Below the pieces are notes generated by a model that did not search any database, was not told the origin of the DNA, and saw only the letters and a program-made list of their open reading frames with translations. Below are positions 11,953 through 24,936 of a DNA stretch of 32,971 bases, in pieces (position 1 is the first letter of the stretch; each line of letters begins with the position of its first letter). Made by a program: the position numbers and the translations under genes. Source of the DNA: Candidatus Zhuqueibacterota bacterium (lineage in GTDB: Bacteria > Zhuqueibacterota > QNDG01 > JABMRT01); assembly GCA_013202295.1 (NCBI GenBank), contig JABMRT010000207.1, positions 1-32,971 of the forward strand, read 5' to 3'.

Positions 11953-11990
11953 ATACTGAAACAACCATCTGATCAAATAAGGTGAAATCT

Positions 11991-12959
11991 ATGAGAAAAC
12001 TCCTATTCCTGTGTCTCACAGGATTGTTCTTGACCTCATGCCAAACCAGTTCCCGTGTCACTGTTTTGAAATTGGCCCATGCACTGGATATTTCACATCC
12101 GGTGCACAAAGGTATGATCGTTATGGCGGAGAAGCTTGTTGAGAAATCTGATGGACGAATGCGCATCGATATTTATCCAAGCGGACAGTTGGGCAATGAG
12201 CGCGAGTTGATTGAAATGCTTCAAATCGGCAGCCTATCCATGACCAAGGTCTCCACCGCGCCATTGGAATCCTTTGTGCCGGAAATGAAAATATTTGGTG
12301 TGCCCTATCTCTTTCGGGATGACGCCCATCGCTGGAAAGTATTGGAAGGAGAAATCGGCAAGCAGCTTCTCCTCGCGGGGCAGGATTATCTCGTTCGCGG
12401 ACTCTGCTATTATGATGCGGGCAACCGCAGCTTTTATACGAAGGATCGCCCGATTGAATCGCCGAAAGATCTTGAAGGACTTAAAATCCGGGTTATGAAA
12501 TCCATTACCTCCATGTCCATGGTGAAAAGCCTTGGAGGATCTGCAACGCCTATTCCCTGGGGCGAACTTTATACGGCCTTGCAGCAGGGTGTGGTCGATG
12601 GCGCTGAAAACAATCCACCCAGTTTTCATCTGTCCCGTCATTACGAAGTCTGTAAATATTATAGTTTGGATGAGCACACGTCCGTGCCGGATATCCTTCT
12701 AATGAGTACCGTGGTCTGGAACCGACTCTCACGCCAGGAACAGACCTGGCTACAGGAAGCAGTGGATGAATCAGTCATTGCCCAGCGTCAGTTCTGGAAA
12801 GAGGCAGTGGATGAAGCCTTTCGTGTCGTTCAGGAGGCGGGCGTGCAAATCCTCTATCCCGACAAAGCGCCTTTCCGGGAAAAGGTCAAGGCCATGCATG
12901 AATCATATAAAGGGACATCGATTTACAATCTTATTCAAAAAATCGAAGCCATTGAATAA
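11991..12959 (+). CDS. dctP: TRAP transporter substrate-binding lipoprotein (DctP family)
   Basis: This is the substrate-binding subunit of a tripartite TRAP transporter. The 322-residue protein starts with a lipoprotein signal (MRKLLFLCLTGLFLTSC, lipobox Cys17), so it is lipid-anchored outside the inner membrane. The family segments ELIEMLQIGSLSM, FGVPYLFRDDAHRW, LEGLKIRVMKS (with the conserved carboxylate-binding Arg) and ALQQGVVDGAENNP are present. The ATG at 11991 is preceded by AAGGTG; a GTG at 11982 overlaps that site. Most TRAP ligands are organic acids, and several studied homologues bind glucuronate or galacturonate. The neighbouring kinase and the uronate operon make a hexuronate the likely ligand, by inference. 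Confidence 0.93.
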   Translation: MRKLLFLCLTGLFLTSCQTSSRVTVLKLAHALDISHPVHKGMIVMAEKLVEKSDGRMRIDIYPSGQLGNERELIEMLQIGSLSMTKVSTAPLESFVPEMKIFGVPYLFRDDAHRWKVLEGEIGKQLLLAGQDYLVRGLCYYDAGNRSFYTKDRPIESPKDLEGLKIRVMKSITSMSMVKSLGGSATPIPWGELYTALQQGVVDGAENNPPSFHLSRHYEVCKYYSLDEHTSVPDILLMSTVVWNRLSRQEQTWLQEAVDESVIAQRQFWKEAVDEAFRVVQEAGVQILYPDKAPFREKVKAMHESYKGTSIYNLIQKIEAIE

Positions 12960-12974
12960 ACAGGGGAAATTGCA

Positions 12975-13484
12975 ATGCTGAAAGTGATCAAATTCATTAA
13001 TACCATTATTTCGAAATTATTAATCGTTCTCATGGCAGCGATTGTACTGGATGTCACCTGGCAAGTGATCACCCGATTCATATTAAAAAATCCCAGTTCA
13101 TTTACAGAAGAATTAGCGGGTTTTCTATTGATCTGGATCGGCGTTCTCGGAGCCAGTCACGCGCTGTATACGAAATCTCATTTGGGGATTGACATCCTGA
13201 CCTATAGACTGCAAGGCGTCAAACGTCAAATATCTGATGTCATCATCTATGTTTTTGTGGCACTCTTTGCACTTTTCATCATGGTCATCGGCGGAATGAA
13301 ACTGGTACAGCTCACCCTGTCATTGAACCAGATTTCACCAGGACTGAATGTTCCAATGGGATACATTTACATCGTCCTCCCCTTCTCTGGCCTTTTGATG
13401 ATTCTCTATTCTGCCGGATTTATCTATAAGGCATTAAAGGGGTCAGAAGAATTGTCTGAACATCAAATCAGCGCATTGGATTAA
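12975..13484 (+). CDS. dctQ: TRAP transporter small membrane subunit (DctQ family)
   Basis: The 169-residue protein has four hydrophobic helices (LLIVLMAAIVLDVTW, FLLIWIGVLGASHAL, VIIYVFVALFALFIMVIGG, IYIVLPFSGLLMILYSAGF), as usual for DctQ. The segment VITRFILKNPSSFTEELAG before helix two is characteristic. It starts 15 bases after dctP and ends 26 bases before dctM, inside one operon. It forms the inner-membrane translocator with DctM. Confidence 0.93.
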   Translation: MLKVIKFINTIISKLLIVLMAAIVLDVTWQVITRFILKNPSSFTEELAGFLLIWIGVLGASHALYTKSHLGIDILTYRLQGVKRQISDVIIYVFVALFALFIMVIGGMKLVQLTLSLNQISPGLNVPMGYIYIVLPFSGLLMILYSAGFIYKALKGSEELSEHQISALD

Positions 13485-13510
13485 CCCAGTAAATAAAGGA
13501 GCGAGACATC

Positions 13511-14806
13511 ATGGAATTGTCCGTGCTTGTCCTGGTTGTTAGTTTTGTCATTCTCTTGCTTTTAAGCGTACCAATCGCCATCGCGATTGGCATCACAACC
13601 ATATTAACCATGTTGTTCACGATCCCGCCTGGACCGGCGATTACGACCGTGGCCCAACAAATGGCCACAGGCATCAACAGCTTCGCACTGCTTGCGATTC
13701 CCTTTTTTATTTTGTCAGGACTCTTGATGGGCCGAGGTGGCATCGCACGAAGGCTGGTGGATTTTGCCAAAGTTTTGGTTGGCATGTTTCCTGGCGGTCT
13801 GGCCTATGTGAATGTATTGGCCTGCATGTTTTTCGGCGCAATTTCCGGATCGGCCGCAGCCGCGACCTCTGCCATCGGCGGATTCATGATTCCCATGATG
13901 AACAAAGATGGTTATGATAAAGATTTCAATACGGCCGTAACCGTCACTGCCGCTACAACCGGATTGTTGATCCCACCGAGTAATGTGCTAATCGTCTATT
14001 CTCTCGCTAGTGGAGGAGTTTCTATCGCTGCTCTGTTTATCGCGGGATATCTTCCCGGTATTTTAGTTGGACTTGGCCTGATGGGTGTCTGCGCCATCGT
14101 CGCCATGATTAAAAAATATCCAGTGGGACGAAGAGACAATTTTCTTGTGGGCTTGAAACGATTTCTGGATGCTATTCCTAGTCTGCTACTTATTGTGATT
14201 GTGATCGGGGGAATTATTGCGGGATATTTTACGGCGACCGAGGCAAGCGCAGTGGCCGTTCTTTATTCCCTGCTGCTTTCAGTCGTTTTTTATCGGGAAG
14301 TAAAATTCAAACAAATGCCGGAGATCCTTCTCAAGACGGTGGAAACCACTGCTATCGTAATGCTTCTAATCGGCACATCGAAAGCGATGTCATGGATTCT
14401 GTCCTATGAAAACATCCCGCAGGATATCACTGCAGCTCTGATCGGATTTTCAAGCAGTAAATATGTGATACTGCTGATGATCAATCTCATCCTTCTGGTC
14501 GTGGGCACATTTATGGATATGACTCCGGCTGTCTTAATTTTCACTCCCATCTTTCTACCCATTGTCACACAGCTTGGTATGTCGCCCCTCCATTTCGGGA
14601 TTGTGATGGTACTCAACCTCTGCATCGGGCTTTGCACACCTCCTGTAGGTGCCGTCCTTTTCTTGGGATGCAGTATCGGTAAAACCACAATCGCACGTGT
14701 GACTAAATCGCTCCTTCCTTTCTACGCAGTGATGATCGTCTCCCTCCTTCTTGTGACCTACATTCCATGGATTGTGGAAGTGCTGCCCCGATTATTCGGA
14801 TATTAA
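13511..14806 (+). CDS. dctM: TRAP transporter large membrane subunit (DctM family)
   Basis: This is the large channel subunit of the TRAP transporter, 431 residues with about twelve hydrophobic segments. Family landmarks are AIPFFILSGLLMGRGGIA, FFGAISGSAAAATSAIG, TAATTGLLIPPSNVLIVYSL, GYFTATEASAVAVLYSLLL, FMDMTPAVLIFTPIFLPI and LNLCIGLCTPPVGAVLF. An AAAGGAG site precedes the ATG. It moves the bound acid into the cell on an ion gradient. The operon ends here, at the perfect-palindrome terminator 17 bases past the stop. Confidence 0.95.
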   Translation: MELSVLVLVVSFVILLLLSVPIAIAIGITTILTMLFTIPPGPAITTVAQQMATGINSFALLAIPFFILSGLLMGRGGIARRLVDFAKVLVGMFPGGLAYVNVLACMFFGAISGSAAAATSAIGGFMIPMMNKDGYDKDFNTAVTVTAATTGLLIPPSNVLIVYSLASGGVSIAALFIAGYLPGILVGLGLMGVCAIVAMIKKYPVGRRDNFLVGLKRFLDAIPSLLLIVIVIGGIIAGYFTATEASAVAVLYSLLLSVVFYREVKFKQMPEILLKTVETTAIVMLLIGTSKAMSWILSYENIPQDITAALIGFSSSKYVILLMINLILLVVGTFMDMTPAVLIFTPIFLPIVTQLGMSPLHFGIVMVLNLCIGLCTPPVGAVLFLGCSIGKTTIARVTKSLLPFYAVMIVSLLLVTYIPWIVEVLPRLFGY

Positions 14807-15606: not shown

Positions 15607-15876
15607 AGCGAAAGTACTATGTTTTACTGGTCTATTATTTGCCTAAACAATATAACATGTTCCATCGAACGGATGAACATCGAATCAGGTTCAATTTAAT
15701 TCTCTTTCGATTTCAAAATGAAATAGAAAGGATGAATCCATTTTCAAATTGCAGATCAATGAATCGTTATCGTTCGACATTGGCACTTTTAAAAAACAAA
15801 AATTACTTTTCCCCTTTTCTCCCTGAAAAGTCAGGAGAATTGATTACTCACCGTTATGTTTTTTTTATTGAATGAC

Positions 15877-17895
15877 ATGAAAAAACGTCTAATAATCACA
15901 CTTTTTATTTTTCAATGGTTCACTGGATTCACACAGAATTTGGATTTGGCTGAATTCAGCCTTCAAGATCTGATTGACCAGAAAGTGACCCTGGTCTCAA
16001 AGAAAGAGGAAAAATTTATACGAGCAGCCGCGGCTGTCTTTGTATTGACGAATGAGGACATCCGGCGCTCAGGGGCAACAAGCATCCCGGAATTGCTGAG
16101 GCTGGTGCCTGGATTCCAGGTGGCAAGAATCGACGCCAACAAATGGGCCGTCAGCACTCGCGGCTTTATCGGACGTTTTTCTAACAAACTTCTGGTACTC
16201 ATTGATGGGCGATCTGTGTACTCCCCGCTGTTCTCCGGCGTCTTCTGGTCCATGCAGGACGTGATGCTGGAGGATATCGAGCGCATCGAAGTGATCCGGG
16301 GACCTGGTGCAACCCTTTGGGGAGCAAACGCGGTCAACGGAATTATCAATATTGTCACCAAGCATACAAAAGAAACTCAAGGCGGACTGATCTCCGTAGG
16401 TGTTGGTACAGAGGAACGGATCTTTGGTACTGCACGATACGGCACTGAAATCAGTAAAAATGTTTCTATCCGCGGATTCTCGAAATATATTAAACGGGAT
16501 CAATCTCTCCTTATAAATGGCGATCCGGCAGCGGATGACTGGGACATTCTACACAACGGCCTTCGTGCTGACTGGGAAAAATCACCAAACCACCTGATGA
16601 GTCTTGAGTCCGACTTTTACTGTGGCAATCTGAATCATACACTCGAGACAGTAACGCTTGATCCACCGCATATGAACAGTCGCAAGTACAACGGCGATAT
16701 GCGAGGAATGCATGTGCAATTTCATTCGCAATCTATTTTTAATAACGCATCTGTTCTCAATCTTCAAACCTATTACGATTACCTGAATCGAGACGAGGGT
16801 GTTGTCAATGGCAGTATGCGCACATTTAATATTGATTTGGATTATCTGTTTGATTGGGGACGACGCCATCAAGTCATCTGTGGTGCTGCTTTCCGTTTGA
16901 TCCGGCATGAATATGCTTACAATAATATCATGTATATCGATTCAAATGTGAGAACGCAAAATCTATACAGCGCATTTATTCAGGATGACATTCAAATATT
17001 AAAAGAACGGCTCCGTTTAACTTTAGGCAGTAAATTCGAACACTACTATTATACTGGATTCGAAATACAGCCAAACGCTCGTCTCCTTTTTACGCCCAAT
17101 ACGGTTCACACCTTCTGGACCGCTGTCTCCAAAGCCGTTCGAACGCCCTCACTCGCTGAAGTTGAAGGACGCCACCTGGCATCCATGGACGGTACAATGT
17201 TGTTTGACTTGCCGATGATTTTCGGGTATTGGGGCAATCCTGATCTTCGTTCAGAATCACTCATTGCGTATGAGATCGGTTATCGGCACTGTCCTTCGAA
17301 TCAGTTTCTTTTGGATGTGGCTGCTTTTTATAACGATTATAATCACCTGGTTTCTGGAAATATGGGCTTTATAGAAATCGATCCTTCTCCTTATCCTCAA
17401 TATTACATTTTCTATGCGACATCGGAAAATAAAATAGCCGGTCAGATCTATGGTGTTGAAACACTTCTGGATTATCAGGTAAGCAAGACCTGGAGAATAC
17501 AATGTTCTTATACGTTCTCAAAAGCAAACATGCACTATGTGAGCGGCGGTAATGGCTTGTATATCAATCAAGTGGATAATATTGAAGGGCAGATCCCCAG
17601 ACATCAGGGATTTCTGAGATCGTCAATGAATCTTTTGAAGAACATTGAGTTAGACGCATGTCTGAGGTACATGGACGAACTTCCTGAACTTTCAATCTCG
17701 GATTATTTCGACCTTGATCTTCGCTTGGGATTACAAATAAGCCGCCAATATCAATTGAGTATTATCGGGCAAAATCTGTTACATGAACATCGGCTTGAAT
17801 TTGTGCCCGAATTGAGTTATTCGAAAAACGCAATGATACAACGAGGAATCTTCGTAAAATTTAACTGGCTCTTTAACCAGACGAATCATAAATGA
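15877..17895 (+). CDS. TonB-dependent receptor (first of two paralogues)
   Basis: This outer-membrane receptor for energy-coupled uptake has 672 residues. A signal peptide (MKKRLIITLFIFQWFTGFTQ) is followed by a short conserved stretch (LAEFSLQDLIDQKVTLVSKK), the plug domain (RRSGATSIPELLRLVPGFQV, RGPGATLWGANAVNGIINIV) and a beta barrel. It has no carboxypeptidase-regulatory-like extension, unlike the receptor at 29744. The ATG at 15877 is chosen because it opens directly into the signal peptide; an ATG at 15856 would add seven residues before it. It is closely paralogous to the protein at 20945, especially in the plug. It ends in NQTNHK, not in a terminal aromatic residue. The ligand is unknown. 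Together the pair flanks a YfiR, kinase and regulator set. Confidence 0.92.
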   Translation: MKKRLIITLFIFQWFTGFTQNLDLAEFSLQDLIDQKVTLVSKKEEKFIRAAAAVFVLTNEDIRRSGATSIPELLRLVPGFQVARIDANKWAVSTRGFIGRFSNKLLVLIDGRSVYSPLFSGVFWSMQDVMLEDIERIEVIRGPGATLWGANAVNGIINIVTKHTKETQGGLISVGVGTEERIFGTARYGTEISKNVSIRGFSKYIKRDQSLLINGDPAADDWDILHNGLRADWEKSPNHLMSLESDFYCGNLNHTLETVTLDPPHMNSRKYNGDMRGMHVQFHSQSIFNNASVLNLQTYYDYLNRDEGVVNGSMRTFNIDLDYLFDWGRRHQVICGAAFRLIRHEYAYNNIMYIDSNVRTQNLYSAFIQDDIQILKERLRLTLGSKFEHYYYTGFEIQPNARLLFTPNTVHTFWTAVSKAVRTPSLAEVEGRHLASMDGTMLFDLPMIFGYWGNPDLRSESLIAYEIGYRHCPSNQFLLDVAAFYNDYNHLVSGNMGFIEIDPSPYPQYYIFYATSENKIAGQIYGVETLLDYQVSKTWRIQCSYTFSKANMHYVSGGNGLYINQVDNIEGQIPRHQGFLRSSMNLLKNIELDACLRYMDELPELSISDYFDLDLRLGLQISRQYQLSIIGQNLLHEHRLEFVPELSYSKNAMIQRGIFVKFNWLFNQTNHK

Positions 17896-18026
17896 GCCAA
17901 GTGGATGTCTTCTCATTTACAGCAACACAGTCATTGTTTTAATATGGATTTTTAACTAACACATGAGCTACATTTTTGGAATTCATATAAACGCGTATTT
18001 TATATAATGTAAAAGGATTCGCTAAA

Positions 18027-18578
18027 TTGCACATTCCGAATCTTTCGATGAGATATCGAAATATTATCATTACCCTCCTATTGATTGCCAGTCCTATCTT
18101 TCACTTTCAGGGCAACACCCTCACTGAGCATCAGGCCAGAGCAGCATACATTTACAATTTCATAAAATTTATAACATGGCCTGAACATGTATTTAAAACT
18201 GCAGACCAACCGATCTGTATTACCTTTTTTGGACATTCTGAAGTTGAAAAAGAATTCAAAGAACTAATTCAAGATCGCACAATTAATGACCGGCACATTG
18301 AAGTGAAAGTCATTTATACCAATCAAGAATTGGATTCATGTCACATCGTTTACTTAAATGACATTGAAAGGCGTTATCAGATCTCGACGATCAATGCATT
18401 GAAGAACGATCCTGTGCTGACAATCAGCAACGCTGAATATTTTACCCGAATTGGAGGAATGATTCATTTTATCATTGCCGATGACCGCCTCTGCTTTGAA
18501 ATCAACCGTTCGGCTCTGGAGGCAGTCAATCTCGAGGTCAGTGCAAAATTATTACGGGTCGCCCGGGTAGTCGAATGA
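18027..18578 (+). CDS. YfiR-family (DUF4154) periplasmic protein
   Basis: The 183-residue protein has a signal segment (IIITLLLIASPIFHF) and the DUF4154 pattern: ARAAYIYNFIKFITWPE near 38-53, a first Cys at 64 (ICITFFG), CHIVYLNDIE from Cys105, VLTISNAEYFTRIGGMIHFI at 130-149, and FEINRSALEAVNLEVSAKLL at the end. In Pseudomonas, YfiR is a periplasmic, redox-sensitive inhibitor of the diguanylate cyclase YfiN. The TTG at 18027 is used because AAAAGGA precedes it by nine bases; the ATG at 18048 lacks a ribosome site but would also give a signal peptide. The stop overlaps the kinase start by ATGA, so the two are translationally coupled, as expected for a periplasmic partner of that kinase. Confidence 0.88.
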   Translation: MHIPNLSMRYRNIIITLLLIASPIFHFQGNTLTEHQARAAYIYNFIKFITWPEHVFKTADQPICITFFGHSEVEKEFKELIQDRTINDRHIEVKVIYTNQELDSCHIVYLNDIERRYQISTINALKNDPVLTISNAEYFTRIGGMIHFIIADDRLCFEINRSALEAVNLEVSAKLLRVARVVE

Positions 18579-20119
18579 CGAACATCGTAAACATATCACT
18601 CCAGAGATTCAGAAACATATCGATCAAATACAAACTGATCGCTATGGTGCTTTCGGTGAGTGGTTGCGCTTTGATTTTTGCTTCGCTGAGTTTCCTTGTA
18701 TATGATCGGGGACAACACAGAAAGAAAATGATCCAGGATCTGAAAATTCAATCAGAGATGATTGGCAATAATTGCACAGCGGCTCTTTTGTTTAATATCC
18801 CTAATGACGCGCAGGATATCATTATAGGTATGAGAGCCAATCCTAACATTTTGTTGAGCGGTATCTATCAATCCAATGGTACCGAGTTCGCGTTATACGT
18901 TCGATCCGATTTAAATCCGAACTTGCACCTAAAGATGTTTACAAATTCCATTCATTCAATCATCCCTGGTGGATGGGTATCCAAGGAACATACACTACCA
19001 AAACAGTTGATCTCTGAAGAGAGGGCTGTCTTTTTTAACGGGCGACTACTCCTTGTTCATCCGATTGTTCTTGATCAGGAAATCATCGGTACAGTCGTCA
19101 TCGAATCAGATCTTAAAGCACTTCAGGATCGTCTCAGAAATTACATTGGTACTATGGCAACCCTAATAAGTACGGCGTTTATTTTCATCATTATTCTCAC
19201 TTCCCGATTTCAGACTTTCATTACCAAACCGATTTTTGCTTTGACTGAAACAGCAAAACGGATTTCAGAAAAAGAGGATTATTCAATCCGTGTTGATCAA
19301 AAATGCGACGATGAGCTTGGATTCCTGGTCAACCGGTTTAATGACATGCTTGCACAAATTGAAGACAGAGATATCGCGCTTCGGGAGACTTCATTCAAAC
19401 TCGAAAATCAAACAGTGAAACTTGGTGACGAGTTGATTGTCCGACAGAAAATCGAAAGTCAAATAAAAGAAAGCCTGGCAGAGAAAGAGATTCTTCTGCA
19501 AGAGATTCACCACAGAGTTAAAAATAATCTTCAAATCATTTCAAGTCTTCTTAAATTGCAAATCAGTGAAATTGATAATCTTGAAACCACCACACAGCTT
19601 CAAGATTGCCATGACCGGGTTCATTCAATGGCGTTAATTCATGAACAGCTTTACAGTTCAAAAGACTTTTCTAAAATTAATTTTAATGAGTATATTCGCA
19701 ATCTAACAAATCACTTGTTCCATATCTATCACCAACAGATTCAGAATGTAGACATCGATATTCAGATCAAAGACGTTCACATTGAGTTGAATACAGCCAT
19801 ACCATGCGGATTATTGATTAATGAATTGCTTTCAAACTCCTTAAAATACGCGTTTCCAGATCTCAAGAAAGGCCGCATTAAAATCCAATTAAATGAGGAA
19901 TCAATGCCCCCGGAGTCAACTCAAGAAATAAATTGCCGTTATCACACGTTAATAATCAGTGATAATGGAATTGGCATTCCAGAAAAGGTTAATCCGGAAA
20001 CATCTGACTCACTGGGTTTACGTCTGGTTCAGGCTCTGACCAAACAGCTACATGGCCAGATTACAATTAACCGTAAGCATGGAACAACATATACAATCAA
20101 GTTTAAGGAATTTATATAA
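18575..20119 (+). CDS. Membrane histidine kinase with CHASE8-like sensor, HAMP and HisKA_2-type core
   Basis: The 514-residue sensor kinase has a helix at about 21-43, a periplasmic region to about 188, a second helix at about 192-210, a HAMP domain at about 211-263 and a coiled stretch to 305. The H-box LLQEIHHRVKNNLQIISSLL is at 308-327 (His313 the likely acceptor), followed by NELLSNSLKYAFP at 416-428 and DNGIG at 463-467. This core is of the HisKA_2/HWE-like type. The periplasmic part has the CHASE8 pattern of YfiN (CTAALLFNIPNDAQDII, then MRANPNILLSGIYQSNGTEF), but the output is a kinase, not GGDEF. With YfiR just upstream, YfiR probably modulates kinase activity. Its partner is likely the receiver two bases downstream. 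Confidence 0.9.
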   Translation: MTNIVNISLQRFRNISIKYKLIAMVLSVSGCALIFASLSFLVYDRGQHRKKMIQDLKIQSEMIGNNCTAALLFNIPNDAQDIIIGMRANPNILLSGIYQSNGTEFALYVRSDLNPNLHLKMFTNSIHSIIPGGWVSKEHTLPKQLISEERAVFFNGRLLLVHPIVLDQEIIGTVVIESDLKALQDRLRNYIGTMATLISTAFIFIIILTSRFQTFITKPIFALTETAKRISEKEDYSIRVDQKCDDELGFLVNRFNDMLAQIEDRDIALRETSFKLENQTVKLGDELIVRQKIESQIKESLAEKEILLQEIHHRVKNNLQIISSLLKLQISEIDNLETTTQLQDCHDRVHSMALIHEQLYSSKDFSKINFNEYIRNLTNHLFHIYHQQIQNVDIDIQIKDVHIELNTAIPCGLLINELLSNSLKYAFPDLKKGRIKIQLNEESMPPESTQEINCRYHTLIISDNGIGIPEKVNPETSDSLGLRLVQALTKQLHGQITINRKHGTTYTIKFKEFI

Positions 20120-20121
20120 TT

Positions 20122-20514
20122 ATGCACGCGATTCTAACTAACGATTTAAAAATCTTGATCGTCGAAGATGAAATGATTACCGTCCTCGAAATTCAACAGT
20201 CACTCCGCCAAGGAGGATATCAAGTGGTTGGGTATGCGGATAACAGCGAAGACGCCATTCGTATGACAAGGAATAATCTCCCTGAGTTAGTCCTTATGGA
20301 TATTAAAATCTGTGGCAGTGTCGATGGGATTGATACCGCACAGAAAATCAAAGCTGAATTCGACATTCCTATCATATTCATCACAGCCAATTCAGATTAT
20401 TTACACTCAGATCGGTTGAAAGGCGTGGATCCTCACGACATTATTATCAAACCCTTTACAGACTTCGATCTGATGTCTTCCATTAACAATGCATTGCCAC
20501 ATACAATAGCATAA
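20122..20514 (+). CDS. Single-domain response regulator
   Basis: This is a stand-alone receiver of 130 residues. The acidic pocket is Glu15-Asp16 (ILIVEDE), the phosphoacceptor is Asp60 in LVLMDIKI, and the switch residues are Thr88 (FITAN) and Lys110 (IIIKPF). There is no DNA-binding or enzymatic output domain, as often seen with HisKA_2/HWE kinases. It is probably phosphorylated by the kinase two bases upstream and acts through a partner protein or as a phosphate shuttle. The downstream output is not visible in the window. Confidence 0.93.
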   Translation: MHAILTNDLKILIVEDEMITVLEIQQSLRQGGYQVVGYADNSEDAIRMTRNNLPELVLMDIKICGSVDGIDTAQKIKAEFDIPIIFITANSDYLHSDRLKGVDPHDIIIKPFTDFDLMSSINNALPHTIA

Positions 20515-20944
20515 TCTAACAATTCTTTTTTCGAGTCCCGAACTACCATTATTCTAATTTAAGTATTTGTAAAACCTTTAAATCATTTTCTTAACCAGAT
20601 GAGTTTCGAAAACTCCCAAATTGTTCGCTGTAATGCTCAATATTGGGTTAATATTCTTAACCAACTGTCTCGAATACCATGGAATCAACTTCATGGTATA
20701 TTTATTGCTTATATAATAACAGAATCATAAGGCTGGATAAATGACTTAGTTATGCATTCAAAATAAGAGTCGTTTCTTCAATTCAGCACATAATGTAATT
20801 CTGTGCATTCCATTCTGTAAGAGGATTTTTATTATATCCTTTTTTTTATCCAGCCGAAATTTACAACAGATCTGACTCGAAAGTCCCTGTGCTTGAATTT
20901 ACTCGGCCTGATGATTAATTTTCTGATCATTTATAGGTGACACG
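20515..20944 (+). other. 430-base gene-free leader before the second receptor, with nested inverted repeats
   Basis: I see no gene here. ATACCATG (20674-20681) and CATGGTAT (20692-20699) form an eight-base hairpin. GGCTGGATAAA (20731-20741) is exactly complementary to TTTATCCAGCC (20845-20855). Inside this pair are three smaller stems: GACTTA 20743-20748 with 20764-20771 (two-base bulge), GCACA 20786-20790 with TGTGC 20802-20806, and AGGAT 20822-20826 with ATCCT 20836-20840, the last followed by eight T residues. The third stem looks like a weak terminator, and the outer arm overlaps its T-run. I do not recognise a known riboswitch; the cobalamin B12-box is absent. Confidence 0.5.
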
Positions 20945-22942
20945 ATGAAACGGTTGCTGGTTTTTATATTCATAAATTTGCCAATCCTTATTCTTTTCTC
21001 ACAATCAAAAGACTTAACTGAATTGAGTTTGCAAGAGCTTTCTGCCTACGAAGTGACTCTGGTATCCAGAAAAAAAGAGACACTTTTCCAGGCAGCGGCA
21101 GCAATATATGTTATCACAGGTGAAAGCATCCGGATGTCTGGAGCGACAAGTATACCGGAAGCGCTCCGTCTTGTACCCGGCTTGCAGGTAGCCCGGATAG
21201 ATGCGAATAAATGGGCGATCACATCTCGCGGATTCATCGGTCGATTCTCGAACAAACTGCTCGTACTCATTGACGGACGTGTTATCTACAATCACCTTTT
21301 CTCCGGCGTTTTCTGGGACATGTACGATGTGATGATTGAGGACATCGATCACATCGAGGTAATTCGCGGTCCGGGTGCCACATTATGGGGCGCGAATGCA
21401 GTAAACGGAATCATCAACATCATTACCAAAACCGCTAATGCCACACAGGGAGCACTGTTAAAAGTGGGCAGTGGTACTGAGGAAAGACGTTTTGGAGTTG
21501 CCCGGTTTGGCAAAAATGTAGGATTGAAATTTCATTATCGAGGATATATAAAATACTTTGACCGCGATGCGTTCGTGGATGCAGAAGGAAATAAATCCAA
21601 GGATCGTTGGGATGTACTGCGGGGAGGAGCACGATTCGACTGGGATCCCTCCGGCCGTGACAACATTCGATGTATAACAGATATTTATTCCGGAGAGATC
21701 GGACACAACCTGGAGGGAGTTTCTCTCCAACCTCCCTATATGGAATGGCAAGCGCATCGTGGAGCGATCAGAGGATACAGCGCTCTGATGAGCTGGCAGC
21801 ATTATTTCGCGAACGCTTCGGTGTGGACGTTTACCATGAGTCATGATAACGCGCAGAGAGAAGAGGGAACGCTCGATGCGAAATTCAAATCGTCAGAAGT
21901 GGATGCAAGTTATCTTTTTGATATCGGAAATCGACAGCAAGTTATCGCCGGCATCGGATTGCGATTGTTCCAGGATCAGTATCAGAACACATTTGCCATG
22001 TCCGTTTTTCCATCAAAAAGAAATCTTCCTTTTTGGAGTGCATTCATACAGGATGAAATATTTATAGTGCCATCACGATTACGTCTCACTCTGGGCTCCA
22101 AATTTGAACATAACAGTTTTGATGGATTTGAGATCCAGCCGAATGTCCGTCTCCTCTATCTCCCGGATAATACGATCACATTTTGGGGTGCGGTCTCAAG
22201 AGCAGTACGAACACCATCCAGGGCTGAATCGGGTGGATATTATGTGGATCAGGTGATTATGGACACGACGTTCCTGCACATGCCCATCGTGATTCGCATG
22301 GAAGGAAATCCTGAATTTCGATCCGAAACACTCCTTTCTCATGAAATTGGGTGCCGCTACAGTTCAAAAGAATGGTTCTCCATAGATTTGACCGCATTTT
22401 ATAATAAATATGATTACGTATTCAGCGGTCTTTTCAACACACCTTTCAAAGAGAATGAATCAGGTTATGAATACATTGTATTCCCCATTCTGACAGACAA
22501 CAAAATTGCTGGAATCGGATATGGCTTTGAATTCAGTACCGAACTTCAGTTGACAAAATCCTGGCAGATACTTTTTGGATACGCACATATTCATATGAAT
22601 CTGCACGCCGCTCATGGTGGAATAGATGAACCCTCAGCGGATAGAACTGAGAGACAGTGCCCCATTCACAATGGTACAATTCAAATGAATTTTAATTTAT
22701 CACACTCTGTTTCTACTACCTGCGTCCTGCGTTATATGGATTATATAGAGGATGCTGACATCCCGGATTATCTGAATTTGGATCTCAATCTGCGGTTTCG
22801 TCCATATAGAAATTGTAAATTTTCTCTGGTGGGTCAGAATCTCCTGCACGACTCAATTCTGGAATATCAGCCTGAACTCGATTATACCCAGTACACTTAC
22901 ACGCAACGAGGTGTTTACTCGAGCCTAACCGTGAGTTTCTGA
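20945..22942 (+). CDS. TonB-dependent receptor (second paralogue)
   Basis: The 665-residue outer-membrane receptor has a signal peptide (MKRLLVFIFINLPILILFS), the stretch LTELSLQELSAYEVTLVSRK, a plug domain (MSGATSIPEALRLVPGLQV, RGPGATLWGANAVNGIINII) and a barrel that ends in RGVYSSLTVSF with the usual terminal Phe. Its plug is very similar to that of the receptor at 15877, including an identical RGFIGRFSNKLLVLIDGR, while the barrels diverge in loops. That suggests duplication and different ligands. TAGGTGA precedes the ATG. Transcription probably starts in the 430-base leader. A terminator lies about 95 bases after the stop. Confidence 0.92.
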   Translation: MKRLLVFIFINLPILILFSQSKDLTELSLQELSAYEVTLVSRKKETLFQAAAAIYVITGESIRMSGATSIPEALRLVPGLQVARIDANKWAITSRGFIGRFSNKLLVLIDGRVIYNHLFSGVFWDMYDVMIEDIDHIEVIRGPGATLWGANAVNGIINIITKTANATQGALLKVGSGTEERRFGVARFGKNVGLKFHYRGYIKYFDRDAFVDAEGNKSKDRWDVLRGGARFDWDPSGRDNIRCITDIYSGEIGHNLEGVSLQPPYMEWQAHRGAIRGYSALMSWQHYFANASVWTFTMSHDNAQREEGTLDAKFKSSEVDASYLFDIGNRQQVIAGIGLRLFQDQYQNTFAMSVFPSKRNLPFWSAFIQDEIFIVPSRLRLTLGSKFEHNSFDGFEIQPNVRLLYLPDNTITFWGAVSRAVRTPSRAESGGYYVDQVIMDTTFLHMPIVIRMEGNPEFRSETLLSHEIGCRYSSKEWFSIDLTAFYNKYDYVFSGLFNTPFKENESGYEYIVFPILTDNKIAGIGYGFEFSTELQLTKSWQILFGYAHIHMNLHAAHGGIDEPSADRTERQCPIHNGTIQMNFNLSHSVSTTCVLRYMDYIEDADIPDYLNLDLNLRFRPYRNCKFSLVGQNLLHDSILEYQPELDYTQYTYTQRGVYSSLTVSF

Positions 22943-23125: not shown

Positions 23126-24103
23126 TTATGACGTCTTCTTTATTAAATCCACCAACTCATCAACCTTGGCAAAAGCCAATCCCACTACCGTATCAGCAGC
23201 ACCATAATAGACTGCAAGTTTATTGGAATCTTGATCGCAGAGGGCCGCGCATGGGAAAACCACATTTGCCACATCGCCCACACATTCATACAAAGCACGG
23301 GGGTTGAGCACATAAGGTTTCGCGCGGCCAATCACCTTCCACGGCTCGTCCAAATCGAGCAAGGCTACACCTGCACTGTAAACAAATCCATTGCAGGACT
23401 GAAGCACACCATGATAAATCATCAGCCATCCTTCTGAAGTTTCAATCGGAGCCGGTCCCCCGCCAATCTTGGTATACTGCCATGAATTTCCAACAGGCCC
23501 CATGACCCATCTGTGCTTTCCCCAATATTCAAGATCAGGACTTTGGCTTAAAAATATATCACCGAACGGCGTATGCCCACTGTCTGAAGGCCTGCTGAGT
23601 AAGACAAATTTATCATCAATCTTTCGGGGAAACAGAACACCGTTTCGGTTAAAGGGCAGAAACGCATTCTCGACCTGATGAAAGGTTTCGAAATCATCCG
23701 ACCAGGCCAGGCCAATTGTCGGGCCATGATAATAATTACACCACATCACATAATACCGGCCGTCAATGACCACCACGCGTGGATCGTATCCATACACAAA
23801 TTCACTGATTTCATCAACATCACATTGAAATTTGATGGGATTCGGTTCGATATTCCATTTTAATCCATCCTTGCTGAATCCGCGATGCAGCTGCATCTTG
23901 CGTGTCGTATCATCAATACGAAACACACCTGCAAATTCACCTTTATAAGGAATGACCGCGCTGTTAAACACACTGTTTGAGGTAGGTAGAATATCTCTGG
24001 GAATCACTGGATTATTCGAATAGCGCCACATCACTTCGCTTGATCCGGCAGGCCGGTCTTCCCACGGCAAATTGGGTATGGATTGTCCATTTACTATTTT
24101 CAT
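23126..24103 (-). CDS. GH130 family glycoside phosphorylase (mannoside-type)
   Basis: The 325-residue protein has the five-bladed propeller pattern of GH130: NPVIPRDILPTSNSVFNSAV near the N-terminus, VYGYDPRVVVIDGRYYVMWC (the Asp is the expected catalytic acid), the RN-containing segment LPFNRNGVLFPRKI, then SRPSDSGHTPFGDIF, IGGGPAPIETSEGWLMIYHG and VVFPCAALCDQDSNKLAVYYGAAD. Family members mostly phosphorolyse beta-mannosides such as mannosylglucose or mannooligosaccharides to mannose 1-phosphate. There is no signal peptide, which points to cytoplasmic phosphorolysis. The ATG follows GAGGGA. It is the last gene of the leftward run with the receptor, secreted protein, PorV-like protein and eda. 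The exact linkage specificity cannot be read from sequence. Confidence 0.88.
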   Translation of the reverse strand: MKIVNGQSIPNLPWEDRPAGSSEVMWRYSNNPVIPRDILPTSNSVFNSAVIPYKGEFAGVFRIDDTTRKMQLHRGFSKDGLKWNIEPNPIKFQCDVDEISEFVYGYDPRVVVIDGRYYVMWCNYYHGPTIGLAWSDDFETFHQVENAFLPFNRNGVLFPRKIDDKFVLLSRPSDSGHTPFGDIFLSQSPDLEYWGKHRWVMGPVGNSWQYTKIGGGPAPIETSEGWLMIYHGVLQSCNGFVYSAGVALLDLDEPWKVIGRAKPYVLNPRALYECVGDVANVVFPCAALCDQDSNKLAVYYGAADTVVGLAFAKVDELVDLIKKTS

Positions 24104-24204
24104 TGCTTCCCTCTCAATTGTTTTTTAGCCAATAATAATCGCTGGAAAGTAAATATACCAATCCCAAAGAAAGATTTCAATGTTTTTTAAGAATTGGTGA
24201 TAAA

Positions 24205-24870
24205 TTAATGTATCTGCTCTCTCGCATGTTGGATTGCCTCTTTAAAATCACGAGCTTTTTTGTTAAGTGCCTGAAAATCGTTTGCGGCGATGGCCTTTTT
24301 ATCTAAAATTGCACTACCCACACCGAGACAGAAAGCCCCTGCACTAATCCAGTCACCCGCGTTGGACGCATGGACACCACCCGTCGGCATGATGCGCAGA
24401 TGATTTAAGGGAGCCATGATGGATCTCATATATTCAGGTCCAAAGGATTCTGCGGGAAACAGCTTAATCACATCCGCGCCAGCTTCATGGGCCTGAAGCA
24501 TCTCTGTGGGAGTCATACATCCGGGCACGGCAGGGCAATCGTGTGCATGCGCCATGTGGATAATCTCCGGTTTAAAAACGGGACTTATCACATATTTAGC
24601 TCCTGCATGGATGGCCTTTTCTGCCTCATCACCATTCAGAACTGTGCCCGCTCCAATCAGAATCTTATCTCCCAATGTTTTGCACAGTTTGGAAATGGCC
24701 TCAATCGCACCTGGAGTATTCAGAGTGACTTCAATTGCTTTCATCCCGCCTTGGATTATTGCTTCAGCGATCTGGAGAATCTTGTCTGAATTTGTAAGAC
24801 GGAGAATCACAACGGCGCCACAATCCTGTATCTCGTTTAAAACTGTTTGACGTGACAAGCTTTCACCCAT
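24205..24870 (-). CDS. eda: KDPG/KHG aldolase
   Basis: The enzyme cleaves 2-keto-3-deoxy-6-phosphogluconate to pyruvate and glyceraldehyde 3-phosphate, and often also 4-hydroxy-2-oxoglutarate. The 221 residues include AIEVTLNTPGA with Glu47, ILIGAGTVLN, SPVFKPEII, VPGCMTPTEM and ADVIKLFPAESFGP with the Schiff-base Lys136, then LRIMPTGGV for phosphate binding. The ATG at 24870 gives the normal length; a GTG at 24915 would place the start inside a strong hairpin (24903-24936) and add 15 unmatched residues. It completes the uronate route whose first steps are encoded at 1591-3691, although it lies in the other leftward cluster, upstream of GH130. Confidence 0.95.
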   Translation of the reverse strand: MGESLSRQTVLNEIQDCGAVVILRLTNSDKILQIAEAIIQGGMKAIEVTLNTPGAIEAISKLCKTLGDKILIGAGTVLNGDEAEKAIHAGAKYVISPVFKPEIIHMAHAHDCPAVPGCMTPTEMLQAHEAGADVIKLFPAESFGPEYMRSIMAPLNHLRIMPTGGVHASNAGDWISAGAFCLGVGSAILDKKAIAANDFQALNKKARDFKEAIQHAREQIH

Positions 24871-24902
24871 TCTTGTTGAAGAGGAACCACATGGATAATG
24901 AA

Positions 24903-24936
24903 GAAGCGCATCCACATATTAGTGTGGATACGCTTC
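24903..24936. other. Strong hairpin upstream of eda
   Basis: GAAGCGCATCCACA (24903-24916) pairs with 24923-24936 over 14 pairs with one G-U or A-C position and a six-base loop. No T-run follows on either strand, so it is not a classic terminator. It may be a processing or mRNA-stability element between the PorV-like gene and eda. Confidence 0.6.

Follow-up and report, generated by a model that had tools for sequence, protein, structure and literature searches.

A TonB-dependent receptor, YfiR and CHASE8 kinase gene set of a Zhuqueibacterota bacterium as a probable copy of a widespread envelope signalling module

What does a YfiR protein do when its gene lies beside that of a histidine kinase, between two genes for TonB-dependent receptors (TBDR)? 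YfiR is known to repress one class of diguanylate cyclases, with an OmpA-like lipoprotein as input. We analysed a stretch of 32,971 nucleotides from Candidatus Zhuqueibacterota bacterium (contig JABMRT010000207.1 of assembly GCA_013202295.1, hereafter the window), in which five genes on the + strand (15856-22942, around 7 kb) encode a receptor (TBDR1), YfiR, a sensor kinase, a receiver and a second receptor (TBDR2). This set is probably a representative of an envelope signalling module that has three tiers and is widespread, with the receptor as input, YfiR as relay and CHASE8 as the receiving part. This judgement is shared between two possibilities, that the receptor captures YfiR directly and that it acts by some other route. 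The features of the locus are:

15856..17895, + strand: TBDR1, a TOL_0244-type TonB-dependent receptor (Pfam Plug 80.7 bits, barrel 89.9 bits)
18027..18578, + strand: YfiR/DUF4154 periplasmic protein (PF13689, 137.6 bits; cut-off 24.9)
18575..20119, + strand: sensor kinase, CHASE8-HAMP-HisKA_2-HATPase_c (Pfam, motifs and AlphaFold2 (AF2) model)
20122..20514, + strand: single-domain receiver (PF00072 (Response_reg), 70.4 bits; cut-off 30.2)
20674..20699, + strand: stem-loop followed by a T-rich tail, a possible terminator between the receiver and TBDR2
20945..22942, + strand: TBDR2, a second TOL_0244-type receptor (Pfam Plug 67.1 bits, barrel 79.6 bits)

The open reading frames (ORFs) and motifs agree with the gene set described in an initial annotation, including the ATGA overlap between the YfiR and kinase genes and the gap of two bases between the kinase and receiver genes. 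That annotation started the set at 15877, which is the second in-frame ATG of TBDR1 (ORF from 15856). Every domain of the set scored above its curated Pfam cut-off. The scan for terminators found seven stem-loop/T-tail sites against 5.7 expected, i.e., chance level, and the promoter scan was also at chance level.

The kinase starts with a transmembrane helix, followed by CHASE8 (residues 49-176; 38.2 bits, cut-off 27), a second transmembrane helix, HAMP (216-264; 30.6 bits, cut-off 25), HisKA_2 (310-385; 99.4 bits, cut-off 22.3) and HATPase_c (413-511; 43.0 bits, cut-off 26.4). The Pfam scan gave no GGDEF match in this protein. The identification of its periplasmic part as CHASE8, set beforehand as a test, is confirmed by the profile score. 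A confident AF2 model of the sensor-HAMP part (predicted local distance difference test, pLDDT, 93.8) shows a PAS-like domain flanked by a long helix on either side, and among solved structures WalK, with its extracellular PAS-like domain, matches this model best. The H, N and G boxes of the kinase are intact (HHRVKNNLQ at 312, N box at 416, DNGIG at 463, SLGL at 479), and so are the catalytic residues of the receiver (acidic pair, phospho-Asp60 in LMDI, Thr88 and Lys110). With phospho-acceptor and ATPase motifs that are complete and a receiver beside it, the kinase has what a HisKA_2 two-component system requires. The nearest named relatives of the receiver are PhyR-type (NF006623, 94.2 bits, below the cut-off of 240). 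It is a single domain in the window, and in relatives it is often part of a receiver-PAS-kinase-receiver protein.

Are these genes associated beyond this locus? The assembly (5.15 Mb, about 96% complete) encodes one YfiR and one CHASE8, both within this 7-kb stretch. It has 34 plug genes, among which the only two of TOL_0244-type (579 and 562 bits) are also found here; the next one scored 107 bits. We searched named genomes with the receptor alignment and kept the best 80 loci, of which 78 were testable. The choice of these loci was independent of YfiR and of the kinase, and their neighbours were identified by six-frame profile searches. YfiR was near the receptor in 63 of the 78 loci, and 58 of them also had CHASE8. 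In 57 loci the YfiR gene immediately followed that of the receptor, with no change of strand. The full trio was found in Acidobacteriota, Deferribacterota, Verrucomicrobiota, Myxococcota, Walliibacteriota, Pseudomonadota, Nitrospinota, Thermodesulfobacteriota, Planctomycetota, Gemmatimonadota and Nitrospirota (NCBI lineage), and beyond these 11 phyla in a KSB1 metagenome-assembled genome (L096) and in the window's own phylum. Most records are metagenome-assembled genomes, so that binning errors may affect single cases, not the whole pattern. The expectation that the gene set is conserved in other genomes is thus borne out in at least 11 phyla for the core of receptor, YfiR and CHASE8, which is constant; the single receiver and the bracket of two receptors vary between loci.

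No YfiR was found near the receptor in 15 loci. One of them (L085) has YfiR and CHASE8 about 7 kb away, and 13 of the other 14 genomes encode YfiR elsewhere. Of 20 such distant YfiR loci that were analysed, nearly all had CHASE8, and a receptor adjoined YfiR in most. The base rate of this YfiR type is 14 of 39 among relatives in the window's phylum and 21 of 140 among Gammaproteobacteria. At the higher rate, the binomial probability of at least 13 in 14 is near 1.5e-5, which is a guide only since the genomes were not matched by phylum. Other neighbours showed no such association: no Pfam family occurred in more than three of the 100 neighbours scanned (chosen from 270 non-core neighbours of relatives and named loci). 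At YfiR loci lacking a nearby receptor, we found no YfiB-like OmpA among ten upstream proteins, several of these loci being short of sequence.

The window YfiR starts at a TTG (18027) or at an ATG (18048) and has a hydrophobic, signal-peptide-like N-terminus. It passes the cut-off of NF053591 (138.4 bits, cut-off 125) and falls below that of NF053586, the "sequestration protein YfiR" (49.1 bits, cut-off 85). The family profile matches the solved YfiR of Pseudomonas aeruginosa (E 2.5e-9), and the C-terminal region is the conserved part of the window YfiR family. Viral contigs contained no relative of the window YfiR. Some YfiR proteins elsewhere are atypical. Proteins in L113 (2414-3775), and in L121 and L123 (YfiR frames of 390-450 amino acids), have two matches to the YfiR profile, apparently as tandem domains, and adjoin a CHASE8 protein; L113 encodes its kinase separately. 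A gammaproteobacterial genome of 4.7 Mb (G115) encodes nine YfiR-like genes on eight contigs, an unusual expansion. We discarded two further candidates: the 620-residue YfiR "fusion" of L194 arises from reading through the receptor gene in the wrong frame, and in the "YfiR-YfiR" protein of L190 the profile splits a single domain in two.

Is the kinase a novelty of this lineage? The initial annotation described the sensor as rewired to a kinase, which is misleading in view of the survey. Among the CHASE8 proteins of the 58 trio loci, 44 are kinases (33 with a fused receiver), three are kinase-receiver-GGDEF proteins and five have GGDEF without kinase; the remaining six are truncated or lack a readable output. 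In this sample of the receptor-linked family, most readable outputs are therefore kinases (44 of 52, or 47 if the mixed proteins are counted) and GGDEF is in the minority; a change from GGDEF to kinase in the window lineage is thus unsupported. The HisKA_2 form occurs in relatives of the window (L014, L015, L019, L022 and others) and in none of the 80 named loci. For twelve CHASE8 proteins of relatives, the domain architecture was confirmed with Pfam. The output of CHASE8 is swappable behind a shared sensor part. The YfiR and CHASE8 tree implies nine output changes by parsimony; its supported branches force far fewer, and support is too weak to date the swaps. Three loci (L087:10542-15416, L091:10517-15532 and L109:10667-15691) encode, directly after the receptor and YfiR, CHASE8-kinase-receivers-GGDEF-(EAL) fusions of about 1,600 amino acids, with both output types on one polypeptide.

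We compared pairwise distances over 54 loci, each corrected for its row mean (rate-centred). The centred correlations were 0.22 between receptor and YfiR, 0.26 between receptor and CHASE8, and 0.27 between YfiR and CHASE8. The raw YfiR-CHASE8 correlation was 0.50, in part due to evolutionary rate. Correlations with the ATPase domain were 0.13 for YfiR and 0.12 for CHASE8, even though CHASE8 and the ATPase are on one polypeptide. These results support the view that the sensor stages travel together somewhat more than CHASE8 does with its own output, i.e., they support modularity, not contact.

The receptors have features of their own. TBDR1 has a plug at about residues 57-165 and a barrel at 166-679, and its AF2 model has a mean pLDDT of 90.6. 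A flexible N-terminal segment, DLAEFSLQDLIDQKVTLVSKKEEK, precedes the plug; residues 24-34, at the start of this pre-plug region, are disordered in the model (pLDDT <50) and the remainder is less confident than the plug. The two receptors indeed flank the set, but the earlier description of their plugs as nearly identical was overstated: plugs are 82% identical (89/109) and barrels 40%. Plugs are strongly conserved throughout the TOL_0244-type family, in which plug identity is 0.72 (mean 71.5%) at barrel identities of 0.34-0.40. In a control TBDR family of the same phylum with equal barrel divergence it is lower (0.515). TOL_0244-type receptors also share a conserved pre-plug segment with the consensus DLTxLSLExLMxxEVTSVSKK. 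Two Methylobacter loci (L098:1740-9875 and L107:1765-9875) have a TOL_0244-type receptor and no local YfiR. In place of YfiR-CHASE8 they encode substrate-binding-like periplasmic proteins and a kinase-receiver-receiver-Hpt-receiver-GGDEF protein, possibly as an alternative input stage. Both receptors lost the N-terminal SLEELM segment (SLDEELGWLQEEAVIFSASRREQK), a loss that is suggestive in these two closely related cases.

How does the set compare with known systems? The YfiBNR system (YfiB-YfiR-YfiN/TpbB) of Pseudomonas and Escherichia, and HmsCDE, also have a gene of the YfiR family adjoining that of an inner-membrane protein with CHASE8 and HAMP, and, by analogy, an outer-membrane input that captures YfiR. 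They differ in output, which is GGDEF instead of a HisKA_2 kinase and a receiver. They also differ in input, since the five genes of the window include no YfiB-like OmpA lipoprotein (the rest of the genome was not searched for one) and have a TonB-dependent receptor in its place. NCBIfam has equivalog models, two of them named after Thalassolituus oleivorans, for the same three protein types: the TOL_0244 receptor (NF053590), the TOL_0243 YfiR-like protein (NF053591) and a "YfiR-like protein-associated" histidine kinase (NF053592). The existence of models for all three implies that curators had already noticed the trio. These names describe a neighbourhood, not a function. Of the window proteins, YfiR passes the respective cut-off, whereas TBDR1 (578.8 bits) and TBDR2 (561.9 bits; cut-off 645) and the kinase (185.9 bits; cut-off 194) remain below theirs. 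In addition to the trio, the window has HisKA_2, a separate receiver and another receptor. In FecA-FecR-FecI, an outer-membrane receptor likewise signals to the cytoplasm through a periplasmic step. However, FecA-type receptors have an STN domain, which neither window receptor matches (Pfam scan to E = 1) and of which the only copy in the assembly is on another contig; they use FecR and an extracytoplasmic function (ECF) sigma factor, neither of which is among the annotated neighbours in the window. OmpS of Alcanivorax dieselolei (B5T_01485) resembles the window receptors as a TonB-dependent receptor similar to TOL_0244 (reported similarity 40.3%, PMC6304351), and is reported to start an alkane-detection cascade (PMC6304351, PMC5174103). 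Our literature searches, which covered papers available without subscription, found no functional study of the set beyond an alkane proteomics paper, and no work connecting YfiR with a TonB-dependent receptor as one system.

The proposed mechanism has three tiers. The outer-membrane input would be the TOL_0244-type receptor, the soluble periplasmic relay YfiR, and the inner-membrane receiving part the PAS-like CHASE8 domain of a signalling enzyme. Ligand binding or TonB-driven transport would change the receptor and shift the amount of YfiR bound at the outer membrane, the receptor holding YfiR much as YfiB sequesters it in Pseudomonas. The altered load of YfiR on CHASE8, which YfiR may bind directly given its homology to the YfiR-YfiN pair, would then change kinase activity, with YfiR as the presumed repressor if the analogy extends to polarity. 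The HisKA_2 kinase would phosphorylate the receiver encoded next to it; at other loci, this sensor part is coupled to HisKA, hybrid or GGDEF(-EAL) outputs. With similar plugs and different barrels, the two receptors could feed one relay with two ligands. The suggestion of the initial annotation that receptor occupancy might be reported through YfiR is plausible and strengthened by the survey. The N-terminal strand of the receptor could dock YfiR as in the P. aeruginosa YfiR system. More tentatively, TOL_0244-type receptors may be a general transducing class that docks YfiR via the conserved plug and N-terminal segment. Next to FecA/STN-FecR-sigma and YfiB-YfiR, this would be a third signalling route, one that spans at least 11 phyla and combines a common input stage with either kinase or cyclic-di-GMP outputs. 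We regard this broader proposal as possible rather than probable.

Several observations weigh against a receptor input. Receptors without a local YfiR retain a similarly conserved plug (identity 0.68) and the N-terminal motif, so that neither feature proves YfiR binding. The receptor correlates with the ATPase domain as well (0.21 after centring). In Gammaproteobacteria, YfiR-anchored loci had a receptor within 1.5 kb in 14 of 30 cases and CHASE8 in 21 of 30, so that YfiR is linked more tightly to CHASE8 in that class than to the receptor, a frequent but inconstant partner. Finally, the receptor of both Methylobacter loci is preceded by phosphonate-binding-like and ABC_sub_bind periplasmic proteins, an arrangement that fits ligand delivery as well as contact.

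Could the receptor merely import a compound that YfiR, or CHASE8, binds in the periplasm to change the kinase? The receptor would then be a supplier, and probably a target gene, not the sensor. The conserved partners and their order fit this relay of a ligand equally well, the substrate-binding-like proteins adjoining the Methylobacter receptor in place of YfiR-CHASE8 favour it, and TOL_0244 of T. oleivorans, up sevenfold on n-C28 alkane, has been proposed as an uptake receptor (PMC6304351). Yet the only function solved in the YfiR family is protein-protein binding: in P. aeruginosa, YfiR attaches to outer-membrane YfiB through a conserved surface, which overlaps the site predicted for YfiN (PMC4655355). 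This C-terminal region is conserved in the window YfiR family too, and the periplasm-facing plug is unusually conserved while barrels diverge. We consider this explanation rather unlikely, though it is the strongest competitor of the receptor input. It is much less credible that YfiR and CHASE8 report the periplasmic state, i.e., envelope or redox stress, through cysteine chemistry or folding, the receptors being co-localised merely as regulated genes. P. aeruginosa YfiR is redox sensitive (PMC4655355), and both cysteines of the Cys71-Cys110 pair have counterparts in the window YfiR (aligned through the P. aeruginosa match). However, among 86 relatives the Cys71 position is a cysteine in only 31% (Cys110 in 74%), and the second disulfide of the YfiBNR protein (Cys145-Cys152) is absent from the window YfiR, with cysteines at these positions in 5% and 0% of the relatives. 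Nor would stress sensing account for the pairing with a single receptor type in at least 11 phyla. Chance clustering of unrelated neighbours in one assembly, which has small intergenic distances in its favour and nothing else, is refuted by the 57 of 78 independently anchored loci with the same order and strand, and has a negligible probability given that the sole YfiR and sole CHASE8 of the assembly are here, with the same neighbours in 58 of 78 receptor-anchored loci.

The signalling genes are surrounded by a sugar phosphorolysis neighbourhood (window:5068-11837 and 23126-24915), with an SSF symporter, a GH94 phosphorylase, a GHMP kinase, a nucleotidyl transferase, a GH130 mannooligosaccharide phosphorylase and a KDPG-aldolase-like protein. 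A complete tripartite ATP-independent periplasmic (TRAP) transporter (DctP solute-binding protein, DctQ-like and DctM-like) is encoded at 11982-14806. Next comes the ORF of a YjeF_N protein (14767), which overlaps the DctM-like gene at its end. The TRAP, GH94, GH130 and KDPG-aldolase-like neighbours suggest a carbohydrate setting, and prove nothing.

What does this mean for the family? The survey indicates that in its receptor-linked branch, across many phyla, YfiR usually has a TonB-dependent receptor and a CHASE8 kinase beside it. Should the receptor prove to be the input, the module would offer a concrete, testable way for the occupied state of an outer-membrane receptor to reach the cytoplasm without an STN domain or a sigma factor. 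It would then also be a candidate for explaining the alkane responses triggered by receptors such as OmpS.

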